Positions 2,140-9,591 of a stretch of 25,629 nucleotides of DNA are shown here, one piece after another. The notes under the pieces were generated by a model, which worked only from the letters and a program-made list of their open reading frames with translations, searched no databases and was not told where the DNA came from. The DNA comes from a virus, in the IMG/VR virus record IMGVR_UViG_3300046532_000597, positions 1 through 25,629 of that record; one strand, given 5' to 3'. The first letter of the stretch is position 1; every line of letters begins with the position of its first letter. A program made the position numbers and the translations under genes.

Positions 2140-2466
2140 ATGGAAAATAAATTAGTGAGAAATATGCCCCCCGCTCGCGGCGCTGGCCGTCCGAAAGGCG
2201 CTCCGAATAAATCAACGGCGCTTTTGAAGGACGCGATTTTGCAAGCGGCTGAGCTTGCTGGCGATAAAGGCGGCATGGTTAATTATCTTCTAAAGCAAGC
2301 GCATGAGAATCCCATTGCTTTCATGGGGTTAATGGGGAAGGTGCTGCCTTTGCAAGTGGTTGCTGACATTACGCAACGGGTTGCCATTGTGACTGAAACG
2401 ATCATGACGCCAATCGAATGGGAAAAACAATGGGCGGATCACCACAGCGACAACCCACCGCATTAG
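2140..2466 (+). CDS. Probable terminase small subunit
   Basis: A 108-residue protein directly upstream of, and overlapping, terL. The N-terminus carries a basic glycine/proline motif RGAGRPKGAPNKST (about residues 13-26), typical of DNA-binding arms in phage small terminase-like proteins. A helical stretch follows (ALLKDAILQAAELAGDKGGM...NYLLKQAHENPIAFMGLMGK). Its expected role is to recognise the packaging site and load phage DNA onto TerL as an oligomer. The call rests on position and this motif, not on a clear family match. The start at 2140 has GGAAAGGG upstream; the open frame extends back to 1804 but would run antisense through the leftward gene. An alternative ATG at 2164 has a weaker ribosome site. 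Confidence 0.65.
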   Translation: MENKLVRNMPPARGAGRPKGAPNKSTALLKDAILQAAELAGDKGGMVNYLLKQAHENPIAFMGLMGKVLPLQVVADITQRVAIVTETIMTPIEWEKQWADHHSDNPPH

Positions 2467-3941
2467 TCGCCTGGGCACCATTTAGTAGGCCGCAATCCCA
2501 GCTTTTAAGCTGCCCAGCGGACGAGATATTCTTCGGCGGCGCTCGCGGTGGGGGCAAAACTGACGGGATGCTTGGTAAATTTGCAATAAAATCAAGCACT
2601 TACGGCAAGGATGCCGTTGGCATATTCTTCCGCAGCACCCGCGAGGATTTGAAGGAGGCGGTTGAGCGATCAAAGGACATTTACACGCCTTTGGGTGCCA
2701 AATATGTTGATAGGCAGTGGACCTTCCCAACTGGTGCGCGGCTCAAGTTCGAATACCTCGAGCGCGACAAGGACGCCCAGAATTATCAGGGGCATTCATA
2801 TACTGATCTATTTTTTGAAGAGCTTACGAACTGGGCAAGCCCGGACCCGATCAATAAACTTCGCGCCACTCTTAGATCGTCGTCCGGCGTGCCCTGCCAA
2901 CTCCACGCCACAGGCAACCCAGGCGGTCCAGGTCACCAGTGGGTTAAGGCGCGCTATATCGATCCCTGCCCCACAGGCGGCAAAATGTTGTGGGAAGAAT
3001 ACAAAAACCCTTTCACGGGCAAATCTGTCAAAATGTCGCGGGTGTTCATCCCGTCAAAGCTATCTGACAACCCAACACTGATGCGCGATCCCGGCTATGT
3101 GGCGCGGCTGTATCAGTCAGGCAGCGCGGAGCTAGTGCGGGCATGGCTGCATGGCGATTGGGATATTGTTGACGGCGCGTTTTTCGATTGCTGGAGTCCT
3201 GGCAAGCATATCGTCCGGCCCTTCCATATCCCTTCCGATTGGCTGAAATTCAGGTCATGCGATTGGGGCAGCGCCAAGCCCTTCAGTGTCGGATGGTGGG
3301 CGGTATGCCCGGAGTTGCACCACACCCAAGACGGCCATGTGATACCGCGCGGCGCTGTTATTAGATACCGCGAGTGGTACGGCGTAGCTAAAGACCCTAA
3401 CGGCGAGGTGCGCCCGGACGTTGGCCTAAAACTGACGGCGGAAGCAGTCGCGGAGGGCATCAAAACTAGGGATGAGGGCGATACGATAGCTTATAGCGTC
3501 ATTGACCCGGCGGCATTCAGTCAGGACGGCGGGCCGTCCATAGTCGAGCGCATGAAGATCAACTTCAGACGCGCCGACAATAAGAGGGCCGGAACCCGTG
3601 GCGCTATGGGCGGGTGGGATCAGATGCGGGCTAGGATGGTGGGTGAGGACTTAGGCGATCCACACGGCCAGCTTCCCATGATGTTTGTATTCAGCACTTG
3701 CACCGACTTCATTCGCACCGTCCCGGCATTGCAGCATGATAGCTCTAGGCCAGAAGACCTTGACACAAGCGCGGAGGATCACGCCGCAGATGAGGCCCGC
3801 TATGGCCTGATGAGTCGGCCTTATGTGCCCAAGTCGGATGCCCCCATCCTCAACCCCACCATGACTATCGGCGGCCCGTCCACCATGACTATGGCCGATC
3901 TGATTAAATCAGTCAGCAAGCGGCGGGCTAGGTATGATTGA
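2418..3941 (+). CDS. terL: Terminase large subunit (packaging ATPase/nuclease)
   Basis: A 507-residue protein that pumps DNA into the prohead and cuts the concatemer. Walker A is GARGGGKT (residues 41-48), Walker B LFFEE (131-135), and the coupling motif ATGNPGG (164-170). The RNase H-like nuclease domain shows the expected three acidic positions: D282 in CDWGS, D363 in VIDPA, and D454/D458 in the EDHAADEARYG segment. Length is normal for the family. The frame overlaps the small subunit gene by 49 bases. The ATG at 2418 lacks a clear ribosome site, and an ATG at 2430 is a possible start, so translation may depend on coupling to the upstream gene. All key residues are intact. Confidence 0.95.
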   Translation: MGKTMGGSPQRQPTALVAWAPFSRPQSQLLSCPADEIFFGGARGGGKTDGMLGKFAIKSSTYGKDAVGIFFRSTREDLKEAVERSKDIYTPLGAKYVDRQWTFPTGARLKFEYLERDKDAQNYQGHSYTDLFFEELTNWASPDPINKLRATLRSSSGVPCQLHATGNPGGPGHQWVKARYIDPCPTGGKMLWEEYKNPFTGKSVKMSRVFIPSKLSDNPTLMRDPGYVARLYQSGSAELVRAWLHGDWDIVDGAFFDCWSPGKHIVRPFHIPSDWLKFRSCDWGSAKPFSVGWWAVCPELHHTQDGHVIPRGAVIRYREWYGVAKDPNGEVRPDVGLKLTAEAVAEGIKTRDEGDTIAYSVIDPAAFSQDGGPSIVERMKINFRRADNKRAGTRGAMGGWDQMRARMVGEDLGDPHGQLPMMFVFSTCTDFIRTVPALQHDSSRPEDLDTSAEDHAADEARYGLMSRPYVPKSDAPILNPTMTIGGPSTMTMADLIKSVSKRRARYD

Positions 3942-3984
3942 GGCCAGCATACGACAAATGAAATTATTTTTATTCTGGAATGTC

Positions 3985-4019
3985 GCCAGAAGGCCAGAAA
4001 AGCCAGAAAGGCCAGAAAC
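3985..4019 (+). repeat. 9-base tandem repeats GCCAGAARR (element 1 left arm)
   Basis: Four consecutive units, GCCAGAAG, GCCAGAAAA, GCCAGAAAG and GCCAGAAAC, lie head to tail after terL. The last units form the left arm of the stem-loop at 3997-4055. The matching units in the second element (4088-4114) read GTCAGAAAG, GTCAGAAAG, GTCAGAAAC. Confidence 0.85.
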
Positions 4020-4055
4020 CTACCCGGTGGAGTTTCCGGCCTTTTTAGCTTTTTC
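3997..4055 (+). terminator. Long stem-loop 1 after terL, possible terminator
   Basis: The arms 3997-4019 and 4032-4055 can pair over about 23 positions. There are two mismatches (A4014 with C4037, C4004 with A4047) and one or two G-T wobbles. The loop is CTACCCGGTGGA. The inner GC-rich part, GGCC.GAAAC with GTTTC.GGCC, is followed by TTTTT, which fits an intrinsic terminator for terL. The stem continues through the T-run, however, which is more than a simple terminator needs. It is paralogous to the hairpin at 4097-4144. Confidence 0.6.
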
Positions 4056-4096
4056 GACTTGCAGCCTGCGGAAACTATTGGTTTAAGGTCAGAAAG

Positions 4097-4144
4097 GTCA
4101 GAAAGGTCAGAAACCTACCCGTTGGAGTTTCTGACCTTTCTGAC
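4097..4144 (+). other. Long stem-loop 2, paralogue of stem-loop 1
   Basis: The arms 4097-4114 and 4127-4144 pair perfectly over 18 bp, with the 12-base loop CTACCCGTTGGA, one base different from stem-loop 1. Where stem 1 has C-G pairs (4012/4039, 4003/4048), stem 2 has T-A pairs (4107/4134, 4098/4143), so both sides of the pair have changed together. Both elements are followed by GACTTGCA. There is no T-run after this stem, so a plain terminator is unlikely. A structured RNA, a packaging signal or a protein-binding cruciform are open options. Confidence 0.7.
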
Positions 4145-4179
4145 TTGCAAAAGTTCTTGATTTGGTACAATAATTATGA

Positions 4180-4299
4180 ATGTACGCCAAACCAAGCAAG
4201 AAAACTAAACCGAAGCCCGCTGCCAAGCCAAGCGCGAACCGCAGCGGCATGACGGCGGCGCTTGGCGGCAAGGTAAAAAAGGGCGGATATGCAGGATAA
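4180..4299 (+). CDS. Tiny lysine-rich protein overlapping the portal start (39 aa)
   Basis: An ATG at 4180 opens a 39-codon frame starting MYAKPSKKTKPKPAAKPSAN and ending KVKKGGYAG. It stops at 4297-4299, after the portal start codon at 4289, so the two frames overlap by 11 bases as in a translationally coupled pair. The composition is extreme: mostly Lys, Pro, Ala, Gly and Ser, with no acidic residue. Such a protein would be disordered and could bind nucleic acid. No good ribosome site precedes the start, and a competing ATG at 4176 opens only a 10-codon frame. I do not recognise a family with certainty. The tight linkage to the portal gene is the main support. Confidence 0.5.
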   Translation: MYAKPSKKTKPKPAAKPSANRSGMTAALGGKVKKGGYAG

Positions 4300-6697
4300 T
4301 TCTTACGATTCTCAAGGCGGCACCTTAGTAACCCCCGAAGATGCGGGCAAGGGAGCGCCGGGAGTTGTCGCCCGCTGGATTGCTGAACTTGATCTCAGCG
4401 ACAAGACTGAATCTAATTGGCGCACCCGTGCCAAGGAGGTGCATGAGCGTTATCGTGACGAAAAGTCTGACAGCTATCAGATCGGCGGCTCTGGCGGTGA
4501 TCGCTACAATATTCTTTATTCCAATATTCAGACGATCTGCCCGGCCCTTTACAATCAGTCGCCCAAGCCTGATGTGCGGCGGCGGTATCGTGACTCTGAC
4601 CCTGTCGGCAAGGAGATCGCCGAAGTTATGGAACGCTGCTTGTCGTTCACGATGGATGACAGTGATTTTGACAGATATATGCGATTGGCGATCAAGGACC
4701 AGCAAATCTGCGGGCGTGGCGTAACCCGTGTTCGCTATGATCCGATCTTCGGCGAAGAATCCGACGAAATGGGTGAGCCTTACGATGAGCTAAAGAGTGA
4801 AGAAGTTAAGTTTGAACACGTTAACTGGGCTGACTTCCGCCACGGGCCGGGGCGTACCTGGGAGGAGATACAGTGGATTGCCTTCCGCCACGTTATGACC
4901 CGCGATGAACTGATTGATAAGTTTGGCGAAGATATAGGCCAAGAGATAGACCTGGATTATTCTCCGATTGGCATGGAAGACAAGGACGGCGATCCTGTCG
5001 CCGACACGTTTAAACGTGCGAATGTTTGGGAAATTTGGTGCAATCGCCAGAAGGAGGTTATCTTTATCTCCAAGGGATTGAAGGAGCGCCCGCTTAAGAC
5101 TGACCCTGATCCTTTGCAGCTTCGGGACTTCTTTCCGATTCCCCGCCCGCTTTATGCAACTGAGAACACCGACAGCTTGGTGCCGATTGAGCCTTTCAGG
5201 TTCTACCGCGATCAGGCCAATGAACTGGACAACATCACGCGCCGCATTTCGGGTGTCATTGCTGCTTGCAAGGTGCGCGGCATTTACGACAGCACAATCA
5301 CTGAGATGTCGAACTTGATGGACGCCAGCGAGAATATGATGGTGCCAGCGCAGGATGTTTTGCCGCTTATGCAGTCTGGTGGGCTAGGTAATGCTATTTG
5401 GATGTGGCCGATTGAGAAGATTGCGGGTGTTTTAAATGAGCTTTACAACCAGCGTGAGCAAATTAAGAAGACCATCTACGAGATTACCGGCATTGCCGAC
5501 ATTATGCGCGGTTCTTCGTCTTCATCTGAGACATTAGGCGCACAGCAGCTAAAGGTTCAGTTCGGCACCATGCGCTTGGATGACATGGGCCGCGATGTTC
5601 AGCGTTATGCCCGCGATTTGGTCAGGATTTCGGCTGAGATTATATCTGAGCAGTTCAGCACCGACAGCATTGCGATGATGACTGACATCAAGCTGCCATC
5701 ACCTGAAGAAAAGATGCAGGCGCAGCAACAGGCTCAAATGATGGGCCAACAGCGGCAGCCTATTCCGTCCCAGCTTCAAGATGTTTTAGACAAGCCGACA
5801 TGGGACGAGTGTATGCAGGTGTTGAAGGACGACAAGCAGCGTTCATATCGGATTGATATTGAGACAGACTCTACTGTTGCTGGCGATCAGGCGATGGATC
5901 AGAAGTCGATGACAGAATTGCTTCAAGGTGTGTCCACCTTTATCAGCAATGCTGGCCCTGCGGTTGCGGCTGGTTATCTTCCGCTTGAGGCGGCTAAGTC
6001 TATGCTAATGTCTGCGGTTCGCAGATTCAGAATGGGCCGTGAGGTTGAAGACGCTCTTGACCTAATTGGCGAGGATGAGTCGGGCGGCAGTGACCAAGGT
6101 GCTGAAGCCCAGCAGCAAGCGCAACAGCAAGCGCAACAGCAAGCGCAGCAAGAACAGGCAGTGGCGGCGCAAGATGCACAGATGAAGATGCAGATGGAGC
6201 ATCAGGAGGCGCAGTTGAAGGCCCAAGAGCTTCAGCAAAAGGCTCAGATGGAGCAAGCCAAGATGCAGATGGAGCAGTCTGGCAAACAGGCTGATCTTGC
6301 GATAGCCGAGAAAGAGCTTGCCTTGAAAGAGCGTGAAATGTCTTTGAAGGAGTTTGAGGCCCAGAAGCCGGAGCCTGACCAAAACATGAAGATTCAGGCT
6401 GATATGCAGATGGCGCGGGAGCGCATGGAATTTGACGCAAGTGAGGCAGACAAGCAGCGCCAAGTCGATCTAGCCAAGGCGATCATGGCTGAATTTAGCG
6501 GCCCAGAGGGTAGCCTTGCTACGCCTGAAGATGCGCTGAACCGTGCTGCGGAGATAATGGGCCGGATTAATGAGGTTGTATCAGCAACGCAAGGCATGGG
6601 CGGCATTCCCCTAGCAGAGACAACGATCATGGTTGCTGATGGTGAGCCAGAAATGGTGCAGGATTTTGGAGTTACAAATGAGCCTTTTCAAAGATAA
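4289..6697 (+). CDS. Portal protein (P22-like podovirus type)
   Basis: An 802-residue protein forming the dodecameric ring through which DNA enters and leaves the head. Position after terL and before scaffold and coat, and size, fit the large P22-type portals. The N-terminal two thirds (about 30-560) carry features I associate with this portal group: an early RYRDE helix, 'YNILYSNIQTICPALYNQSP', the 'PFRFYRDQANELDNITRR' clip/stem region and 'GIADIMRGSSSSSETLGAQQ'. Residues about 600-730 are a Gln/Ala/Met/Lys-rich coiled coil containing a 12-base tandem repeat coding QQQA units; this could be the long barrel. It starts after GGGCGG and overlaps the tiny basic gene upstream and the small gene downstream. 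Confidence 0.9.
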   Translation: MQDNSYDSQGGTLVTPEDAGKGAPGVVARWIAELDLSDKTESNWRTRAKEVHERYRDEKSDSYQIGGSGGDRYNILYSNIQTICPALYNQSPKPDVRRRYRDSDPVGKEIAEVMERCLSFTMDDSDFDRYMRLAIKDQQICGRGVTRVRYDPIFGEESDEMGEPYDELKSEEVKFEHVNWADFRHGPGRTWEEIQWIAFRHVMTRDELIDKFGEDIGQEIDLDYSPIGMEDKDGDPVADTFKRANVWEIWCNRQKEVIFISKGLKERPLKTDPDPLQLRDFFPIPRPLYATENTDSLVPIEPFRFYRDQANELDNITRRISGVIAACKVRGIYDSTITEMSNLMDASENMMVPAQDVLPLMQSGGLGNAIWMWPIEKIAGVLNELYNQREQIKKTIYEITGIADIMRGSSSSSETLGAQQLKVQFGTMRLDDMGRDVQRYARDLVRISAEIISEQFSTDSIAMMTDIKLPSPEEKMQAQQQAQMMGQQRQPIPSQLQDVLDKPTWDECMQVLKDDKQRSYRIDIETDSTVAGDQAMDQKSMTELLQGVSTFISNAGPAVAAGYLPLEAAKSMLMSAVRRFRMGREVEDALDLIGEDESGGSDQGAEAQQQAQQQAQQQAQQEQAVAAQDAQMKMQMEHQEAQLKAQELQQKAQMEQAKMQMEQSGKQADLAIAEKELALKEREMSLKEFEAQKPEPDQNMKIQADMQMARERMEFDASEADKQRQVDLAKAIMAEFSGPEGSLATPEDALNRAAEIMGRINEVVSATQGMGGIPLAETTIMVADGEPEMVQDFGVTNEPFQR
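6110..6145 (+). repeat. 12-base tandem repeat coding QQQA in the portal tail
   Basis: Three near-identical 12-base units, CAGCAGCAAGCG and then CAACAGCAAGCG twice, encode QQQA repeats at portal residues 608-619 at the start of the coiled-coil tail. Slippage could vary the copy number among relatives. Confidence 0.8.
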
Positions 6698-9046: not shown

Positions 9047-9087
9047 TCGGCTTTCTTGCAAACTTTATTTCCTGAAAGGAAAAAACA

Positions 9088-9591
9088 ATGTCTGACTATG
9101 AAATTACTAACACGATTATCGGGGCGCAGAATATTGCTGACACCTCGACAACCCAAAATCATCCGCTTGGCCTAATCGTCCAAGCAGTTGATCGTGCCTC
9201 CACCGCATACGGTGCTGGTGAGTTCGTTTACCTTAGTGGAGTCGCATCAACGGTGCTTGGCTCTTTCGTGACTTACAACGCAGACGACAATTCAACTGCG
9301 CTTTTGGCTGCTAATGCCATTGGCCCAGTTGCTACTGCGATGTCGATCAATGTTGCCAGTTCATACGGCTGGTATCAGATCAGTGGCAAAGCGGTGGGCA
9401 AGTGCCTTGCCGGTTATGCGGATAACGGTCTGGTTTTCGCAACCGCCACGGCAGGTAGCATCGATGATGCTGTTGTCGCTGGTGATCGCGTTAAACTTTC
9501 TAAGGGTGCAAGTGCAGTCGGAACGCCATCTTCGGGTCTTGCTGAATTTGAGATTCAGCGTCCATTCATGGATGACGCCACGGCTGCTTAA
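9088..9591 (+). CDS. Probable capsid accessory/decoration protein
   Basis: A 167-residue, Ala/Ser/Thr/Gly-rich, beta-prone protein directly after the coat gene, with GAAAGGA before the start. It reads 'HPLGLIVQAVDRASTAYGAG' and 'GEFVYLSGVASTVLGSFVTY', then GYADNGLVFATATAGSIDDAV. This strand-rich layout resembles the small beta-barrel head proteins that follow the coat gene in many marine phages. The likely role is capsid decoration or stabilisation, judged from position and fold style. It ends immediately before a strong terminator and so closes the capsid block of the operon. Confidence 0.65.
   Translation: MSDYEITNTIIGAQNIADTSTTQNHPLGLIVQAVDRASTAYGAGEFVYLSGVASTVLGSFVTYNADDNSTALLAANAIGPVATAMSINVASSYGWYQISGKAVGKCLAGYADNGLVFATATAGSIDDAVVAGDRVKLSKGASAVGTPSSGLAEFEIQRPFMDDATAA

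Follow-up and report, generated by a model that had tools for sequence, protein, structure and literature searches.

Terminator-promoter cassettes are known at gene boundaries in phage operons. In such cassettes, one gene ends in a terminator and the next operon on that strand has its promoter no more than ~100 nt further along; the locus analysed here, between the terminase large subunit gene (terL) and the portal gene of a tailed phage, resembles this layout. It differs in that the window, i.e. the whole 25,629-nt stretch of DNA that was analysed (IMG/VR record IMGVR_UViG_3300046532_000597), has two whole copies with complementary halves lost, and in that its stems are built of 9-nt units. 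We propose, with a probability of about 60%, that the two stem-loops of this region, E1 and E2, belong to a tandem hairpin-promoter cassette that supplies terL with an intrinsic terminator and the structural operon with an insulated promoter, at a point of exchange between unrelated terL genes. Literature searches found no publications on this hairpin element.

Two other described systems share features with it. Template-switch (quasi-palindrome) hairpins have perfect stems, and multi-base compensatory changes are possible in them in one event (Monttinen & Loytynoja 2022, PMC8794818), whereas at the window junction such events are presumed. Inverted arms with an internal minisatellite are found in MITE/REP-type palindromes (PMC4596501); unlike them, the window element has no dispersed copies and occupies one genomic site. 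The features of the region are the following:

2418-3941, plus strand: terL, the upstream gene, type A allele (PHROG 979/2 terminase large subunit, E 2e-33/6e-31; Pfam Terminase_6N)
3985-4018, plus strand: left arm of E1, ~3.9 units of GCCAGAAAG (TRF)
3997-4054, plus strand: E1 hairpin, with a core stem at 4010-4019/4032-4041 that continues out to 3997/4054 (folding, inverted-repeat check)
4042-4054, plus strand: T-rich tract TTTTTAGCTTTTT following the core stem of E1 (nT 4.16)
4059-4095, plus strand: decayed promoter copy after E1 (TTGCA...ACTATTGGTTTAAGG), with its -10 lost at AAGG, where it joins E2 (promoter matrix, identity to the relative L084)
4085-4113, plus strand: left arm of E2, three GGTCAGAAA units, two in the sister contig L003 (TRF, comparison with L003)
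4097-4144, plus strand: E2 hairpin, perfect 18-bp stem 4097-4114/4127-4144 with a 12-nt spacer (inverted repeat, folding)
4145-4174, plus strand: conserved promoter, -35 TTGCAA at 4145-4150, 18 nt, -10 AATAAT at 4169-4174 (aligned in 13 lineages)
4180-4299, plus strand: 39-aa basic ORF, MYAKPSKKTKPK..., overlapping the portal start and beginning 5 nt after the -10, a spacing as in 13 lineages
4289-6697, plus strand: portal gene, in the downstream operon (PHROG 12082, E 3e-183)

Both stem-loops lie on the coding strand, E1 being located ~55 nt beyond the terL stop, with the operon promoter ~90 nt downstream of it. The earlier note on this DNA had described them from the letters, and its description is accurate. 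The left arms consist of 9-nt tandem repeats, the loops CTACCCGGTGGA (4020-4031) and CTACCCGTTGGA (4115-4126) are near-identical, and each right arm is followed by GACTTGCA (4056-4063 and 4142-4149), whose second copy starts within the end of the E2 stem and mostly corresponds to the -35 box of the promoter. C-G pairs of E1 at 4012/4039 and 4003/4048 are T-A pairs in E2 (4107/4134 and 4098/4143, respectively). The E1 core stem comprises 10 bp with one mismatch, and its extension brings one more; these mismatches, A4014xC4037 and C4004xA4047, are proper pairs in E2. Folding indicates that the 12-nt 'loop' is partly self-pairing.

The E1 and E2 stems are real and far beyond chance. The E2 arms, in two registers, are the only perfect inverted repeats of at least 15 nt (spacer of up to 60 nt) in the window, and no inverted repeat of 15 nt was found in 200 first-order Markov random sequences. 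Compared with shuffled sequences, the folding z-scores are -6.3 for 3970-4180, -4.9 for E1 and -6.2 for E2, with fold energies of -15.3 kcal/mol for the E1 core and -33 kcal/mol for 3985-4060. Both hairpins are also carried by L003 (IMGVR_UViG_3300047669_000425), 99.8% identical to the window over 8741 nt, and thus they are not an artefact of one assembly. The two contigs have six differences in total, two of them within ~20 nt of the L003 contig ends. Two of the other four fall in the hairpins. One is the 9-nt unit of the E2 left arm, which indicates that the arms change by unit slippage, with the proviso that repeat number may be miscounted in short-read assemblies. The other is position 4037, a T in L003 that makes a proper A-T pair, so that this E1 mismatch is a recent polymorphism.

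E1 is a credible intrinsic terminator for terL, as far as can be judged from its sequence. Like described intrinsic terminators, it has a stable, G+C-containing hairpin of 10-24 bp past the stop codon, directly followed by a T-rich tract (TTTTTAGCTTTTTCG); it departs from them by a loop and a stem that are longer than usual and by an interrupted T-run. In a d'Aubenton-Carafa-type scoring, 60 random places of the window had a median of -71.5, their 95% point lying at -34.7 and the highest score at -15.4. E1 scores +4.8 and its copy in L003 +19.0, in line with the earlier suggestion that it may terminate terL transcription. E2 has no proper T-run (TTTCTGACTTGCAAA) and scores -15.7, and the single hairpins of the relatives L005, L006, L011, L092 and L094, with scores of -26 to -47 and none above zero, are not canonical terminators either. 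A simple terminator scan listed none in the region, because it allows only loops of 3-8 nt.

Just downstream of E2 is a sigma-70-type promoter that is conserved in relatives, with its hexamers at the 16-18 nt separation of this class. Thirteen lineages have the same block 35 to 6 nt before the start of the small ORF, typically TTGCAA or TTGACA, 18 nt and AATAAT. A leave-one-out matrix that excluded the window gave 41.8 bits to the window promoter, and the next match in the window reached 7.4 bits. As the -10 to ATG spacing of 5-6 nt holds in all 13 lineages, the mRNA of the structural operon is probably leaderless, with a predicted start on the ORF ATG at ~4180. We rejected a riboswitch or leader of the portal operon, since transcription is predicted to start at the ATG and both hairpins precede the conserved -35. 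The window version of the 39-aa ORF has no family match in Pfam or PHROG; in relatives, this small basic ORF is replaced by a longer version starting with MPSTSKKQRKFMAAAANNP. Elsewhere in the window, another block, TTGCAAACTYTNTTTCCTGAAAGGAARAAA, is conserved just before a gene start (window 9056-9088; L097:9889; L094:5259). It is an inverted repeat containing a likely ribosome-binding site, AAGGA.

The second-best match to the promoter matrix is found directly after E1, at 4066-4095. At 4074-4088 this decayed copy is identical to the promoter of L084 at 14 of 15 bases (0.01 expected), and it ends where E2 begins, at the shared AAGG. The presence of a promoter remnant after E1 indicates that the repeated unit comprises a hairpin and a promoter. 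Each unit would originally have been a stem-loop serving as the 3' end (terminator) of the upstream transcript, with the operon promoter immediately after it. In the upstream unit, the E1 hairpin and its T-run would still act as a terminator for terL, the -10 of the promoter being gone; the downstream unit retains an intact, conserved promoter, and its hairpin E2 would at most provide weak termination, 3'-end protection or promoter insulation. Transcription would stop at ~4042-4054 and restart at ~4180, directly on the ATG. The left arms are minisatellites of 9-nt units that gain and lose copies. The sequence itself, the paired stems, the conserved promoter and its decayed copy, the dispensable nature of the hairpins and the varying unit number are shown directly; the points of termination and restart, the order of duplication or insertion and the function of the cassette are what we infer from the DNA.

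Querying with terL and portal yielded ~20 distinct junctions in which portal identity was 75% or more. At the same place, five further contig groups (L094, L011, L092/L093, L005 and L006) carry a hairpin built of the same arms. The stem GGTCAGAAAC/GTTTCTGACC is common to these distant relatives, whereas their loops differ, from ~8 to 57 nt: L094 and L011 have a 24-nt loop (GGATAAAAACC...GGGG), L005 has CCTTCGCAATAA and L006 ~8 unpaired nt. The 57-nt loop of the L092/L093 hairpin (L092:1862-1918) has TATTGTCAC tandem repeats of its own. In L091, the hairpin is different and weak. In L011, L092 and L094, terL ends at the left arm, and the hairpin touches its stop codon. In such a position ribosomes can suppress termination, as reported for tR2 (PMC4824070). 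In L005 and L006, terL and the promoter are separated by an extra gene, a small Glu-rich ORF (L005:3758-3975, L006:6524-6730) whose stop lies within the right arm of the hairpin. From these five cases, the hairpin is always found between the 3' end of a gene and the promoter.

Other relatives do without it. The closest one by portal, L084 (95%), and many others have no hairpin at all, which makes the hairpins dispensable. The repeats too are missing in L084, L118, L095, L148, L151 and L009, all of which have the same promoter, and L009 and L012 lack hairpins even though their terL is of the window's type. In hairpin-free relatives, terL runs straight into the promoter, and in L095, L148 and L151 its TGA stop forms part of a TTGACA -35. 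There is no room for any terminator in L084, L095, L118 and others, and therefore termination of terL is not essential in the group. The promoter block is kept in the 13 lineages with or without hairpin, and the hairpins are thus optional additions upstream of it.

The earlier note had taken the near-invariant loop and the paired changes as signs of selection on structure plus loop sequence. As for the loop, a search in relatives had been set beforehand as a test, and its outcome went against selection: among viral contigs and 84,980 prokaryote genomes, the window loop matches only L003, and the distant relatives keep the stem with other loops. The likeness of the E1 and E2 loops is therefore best read as a trace of duplication. 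As for the stem, the idea fares better. On seven distinct stems, 94.4% of cells are paired, compared with 31-58% after sliding one side. Three pairs across the stems show changes on both sides, namely the C-G/T-A pair at the third base of the unit (upper half) and, in the lower half, pairs two and three. In this alignment an N was placed at one bulge position in the rows of L005 and L006, replacing a poor MAFFT gap placement, and the alignment is thereby fitted to the structure; the permutation control was modest (24/500), with a small set of seven stems. The E1/E2 co-changes occupy the same place of the same 9-nt unit. Since the arms are inverted copies of one unit, paired changes can arise in a single event, by unit duplication, slippage or template switching. 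The pairing data are thus moderate evidence that the stem is kept across lineages, rather than proof of stepwise compensation.

Comparison of the flanking genes reveals a point of repeated exchange. L084 and the window share 92.7% DNA identity from 4168, at the -10, to 10997, and their terL products have no detectable similarity over the first 361 residues. L005 has a terL 93-95% identical and a portal 80% identical to those of the window, and L011 and L094 differ in terL type but have nearly identical hairpins and the promoter in common. The two terL types both have matches among terminase large subunit families, and they clearly share only their last ~30 residues, NPxxxIGGxSTMTMxDLxKSVSKRRxxYD. 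The corresponding codons have 81-87% nucleotide identity (window 3840-3939; L084, L092, L094, L095 and L118). Two terL genes without detectable N-terminal similarity thus alternate in one slot, with a sharp module-exchange joint at the promoter. Hairpin presence is scattered on the portal tree, with at least three changes on supported branches; together with the mosaic comparisons, this places the hairpin at a repeated gene-exchange point. The promoter of the second unit resembles that of L011 and the remnant in the first that of L084. The double cassette may have come from a tandem duplication, as the near-identical loops would suggest, or from insertion of a unit from another lineage, as the L011- and L084-like promoters would.

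These data also bear on other readings of the stem-loops. It is conceivable, if doubtful, that the units are maintained as the exchange joint itself, marking with the promoter and the last ~30 terL codons the site of terminase swapping. Somewhat less likely is that, in place of a terminator, a structured RNA lies between terL and the portal operon, either a stabiliser of mRNA 3' ends or a site of processing by RNase III. Stems of 18-24 bp exceed what a terminator needs, their pairing is maintained and most members of the hairpin family have no T-run; yet the T-run of E1 is of terminator grade, close relatives have no hairpin and no Rfam family reaches its gathering score. At relaxed Rfam thresholds nothing credible appeared: the weak matches were mostly to eukaryotic miRNA models and far below cut-off, the best having 27 bits for a cut-off of 66. 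Less probable again, the GGYCAGAAA repeats and their inverted copies could be operator sites (iterons) for a phage regulator beside the -35, with the hairpin as a by-product. That the repeats cluster beside the promoter, that the E2 arm directly abuts the -35 box and that the unit is conserved between lineages with varying loops would fit such sites. However, six relatives have the promoter without any repeats, the distance to the -35 ranges from 0 to ~10 nt, unit number differs between near-identical contigs, and base pairs co-vary, which is not required of protein-binding sites.

We give lower odds still to a mutational product with little function, in which slippage and template switching at a recombination junction would have made an inverted minisatellite and maintained its perfect pairing. 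A single template-switch event is able both to form a perfect stem and to mend one (PMC8794818), and the unit indel between near-identical contigs, the scattered presence of the hairpin and the coincidence of the junction with a mosaic breakpoint all agree with it. On the other hand, several lineages have retained the stem with diverging loops, and the T-run of E1 is well placed. A packaging signal or a mobile palindrome, which the earlier note had listed, is very improbable, although the element adjoins the terminase genes and is palindromic and duplicated. A pac/cos site was rejected since the element is missing both in relatives that have the same portal (L084, L118, L095 and others) and in two that have the same terL type (L009 and L012). 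A REP/MITE-type element was rejected since there are no dispersed copies: among viral contigs, the arms are found only at the terL/portal junction of this phage clade, and six arm-like matches in prokaryote genomes are without terL or portal and look like chance. The element is real and clade-specific, a duplicated terminator-promoter cassette accounts for it well, and we found no evidence for a new RNA class, a packaging site or a mobile element.

The tandem hairpin-promoter cassette illustrates that near-identical hairpin loops within one genome can signal duplication rather than selection, and that what look like compensatory changes in stems made of repeats have to be interpreted with the help of relatives. 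For this uncultured phage group, it pinpoints a promoter heading the structural operon, with a probably leaderless mRNA, and the joint where unrelated terminase genes are exchanged. If the stem-loop units were themselves maintained as that joint, unrelated terminase genes would be swapped while the structural operon keeps its own stop and start control, and the window would be a snapshot of the process, with an L084-like promoter remnant in the first unit and an L011-like hairpin and promoter in the second.
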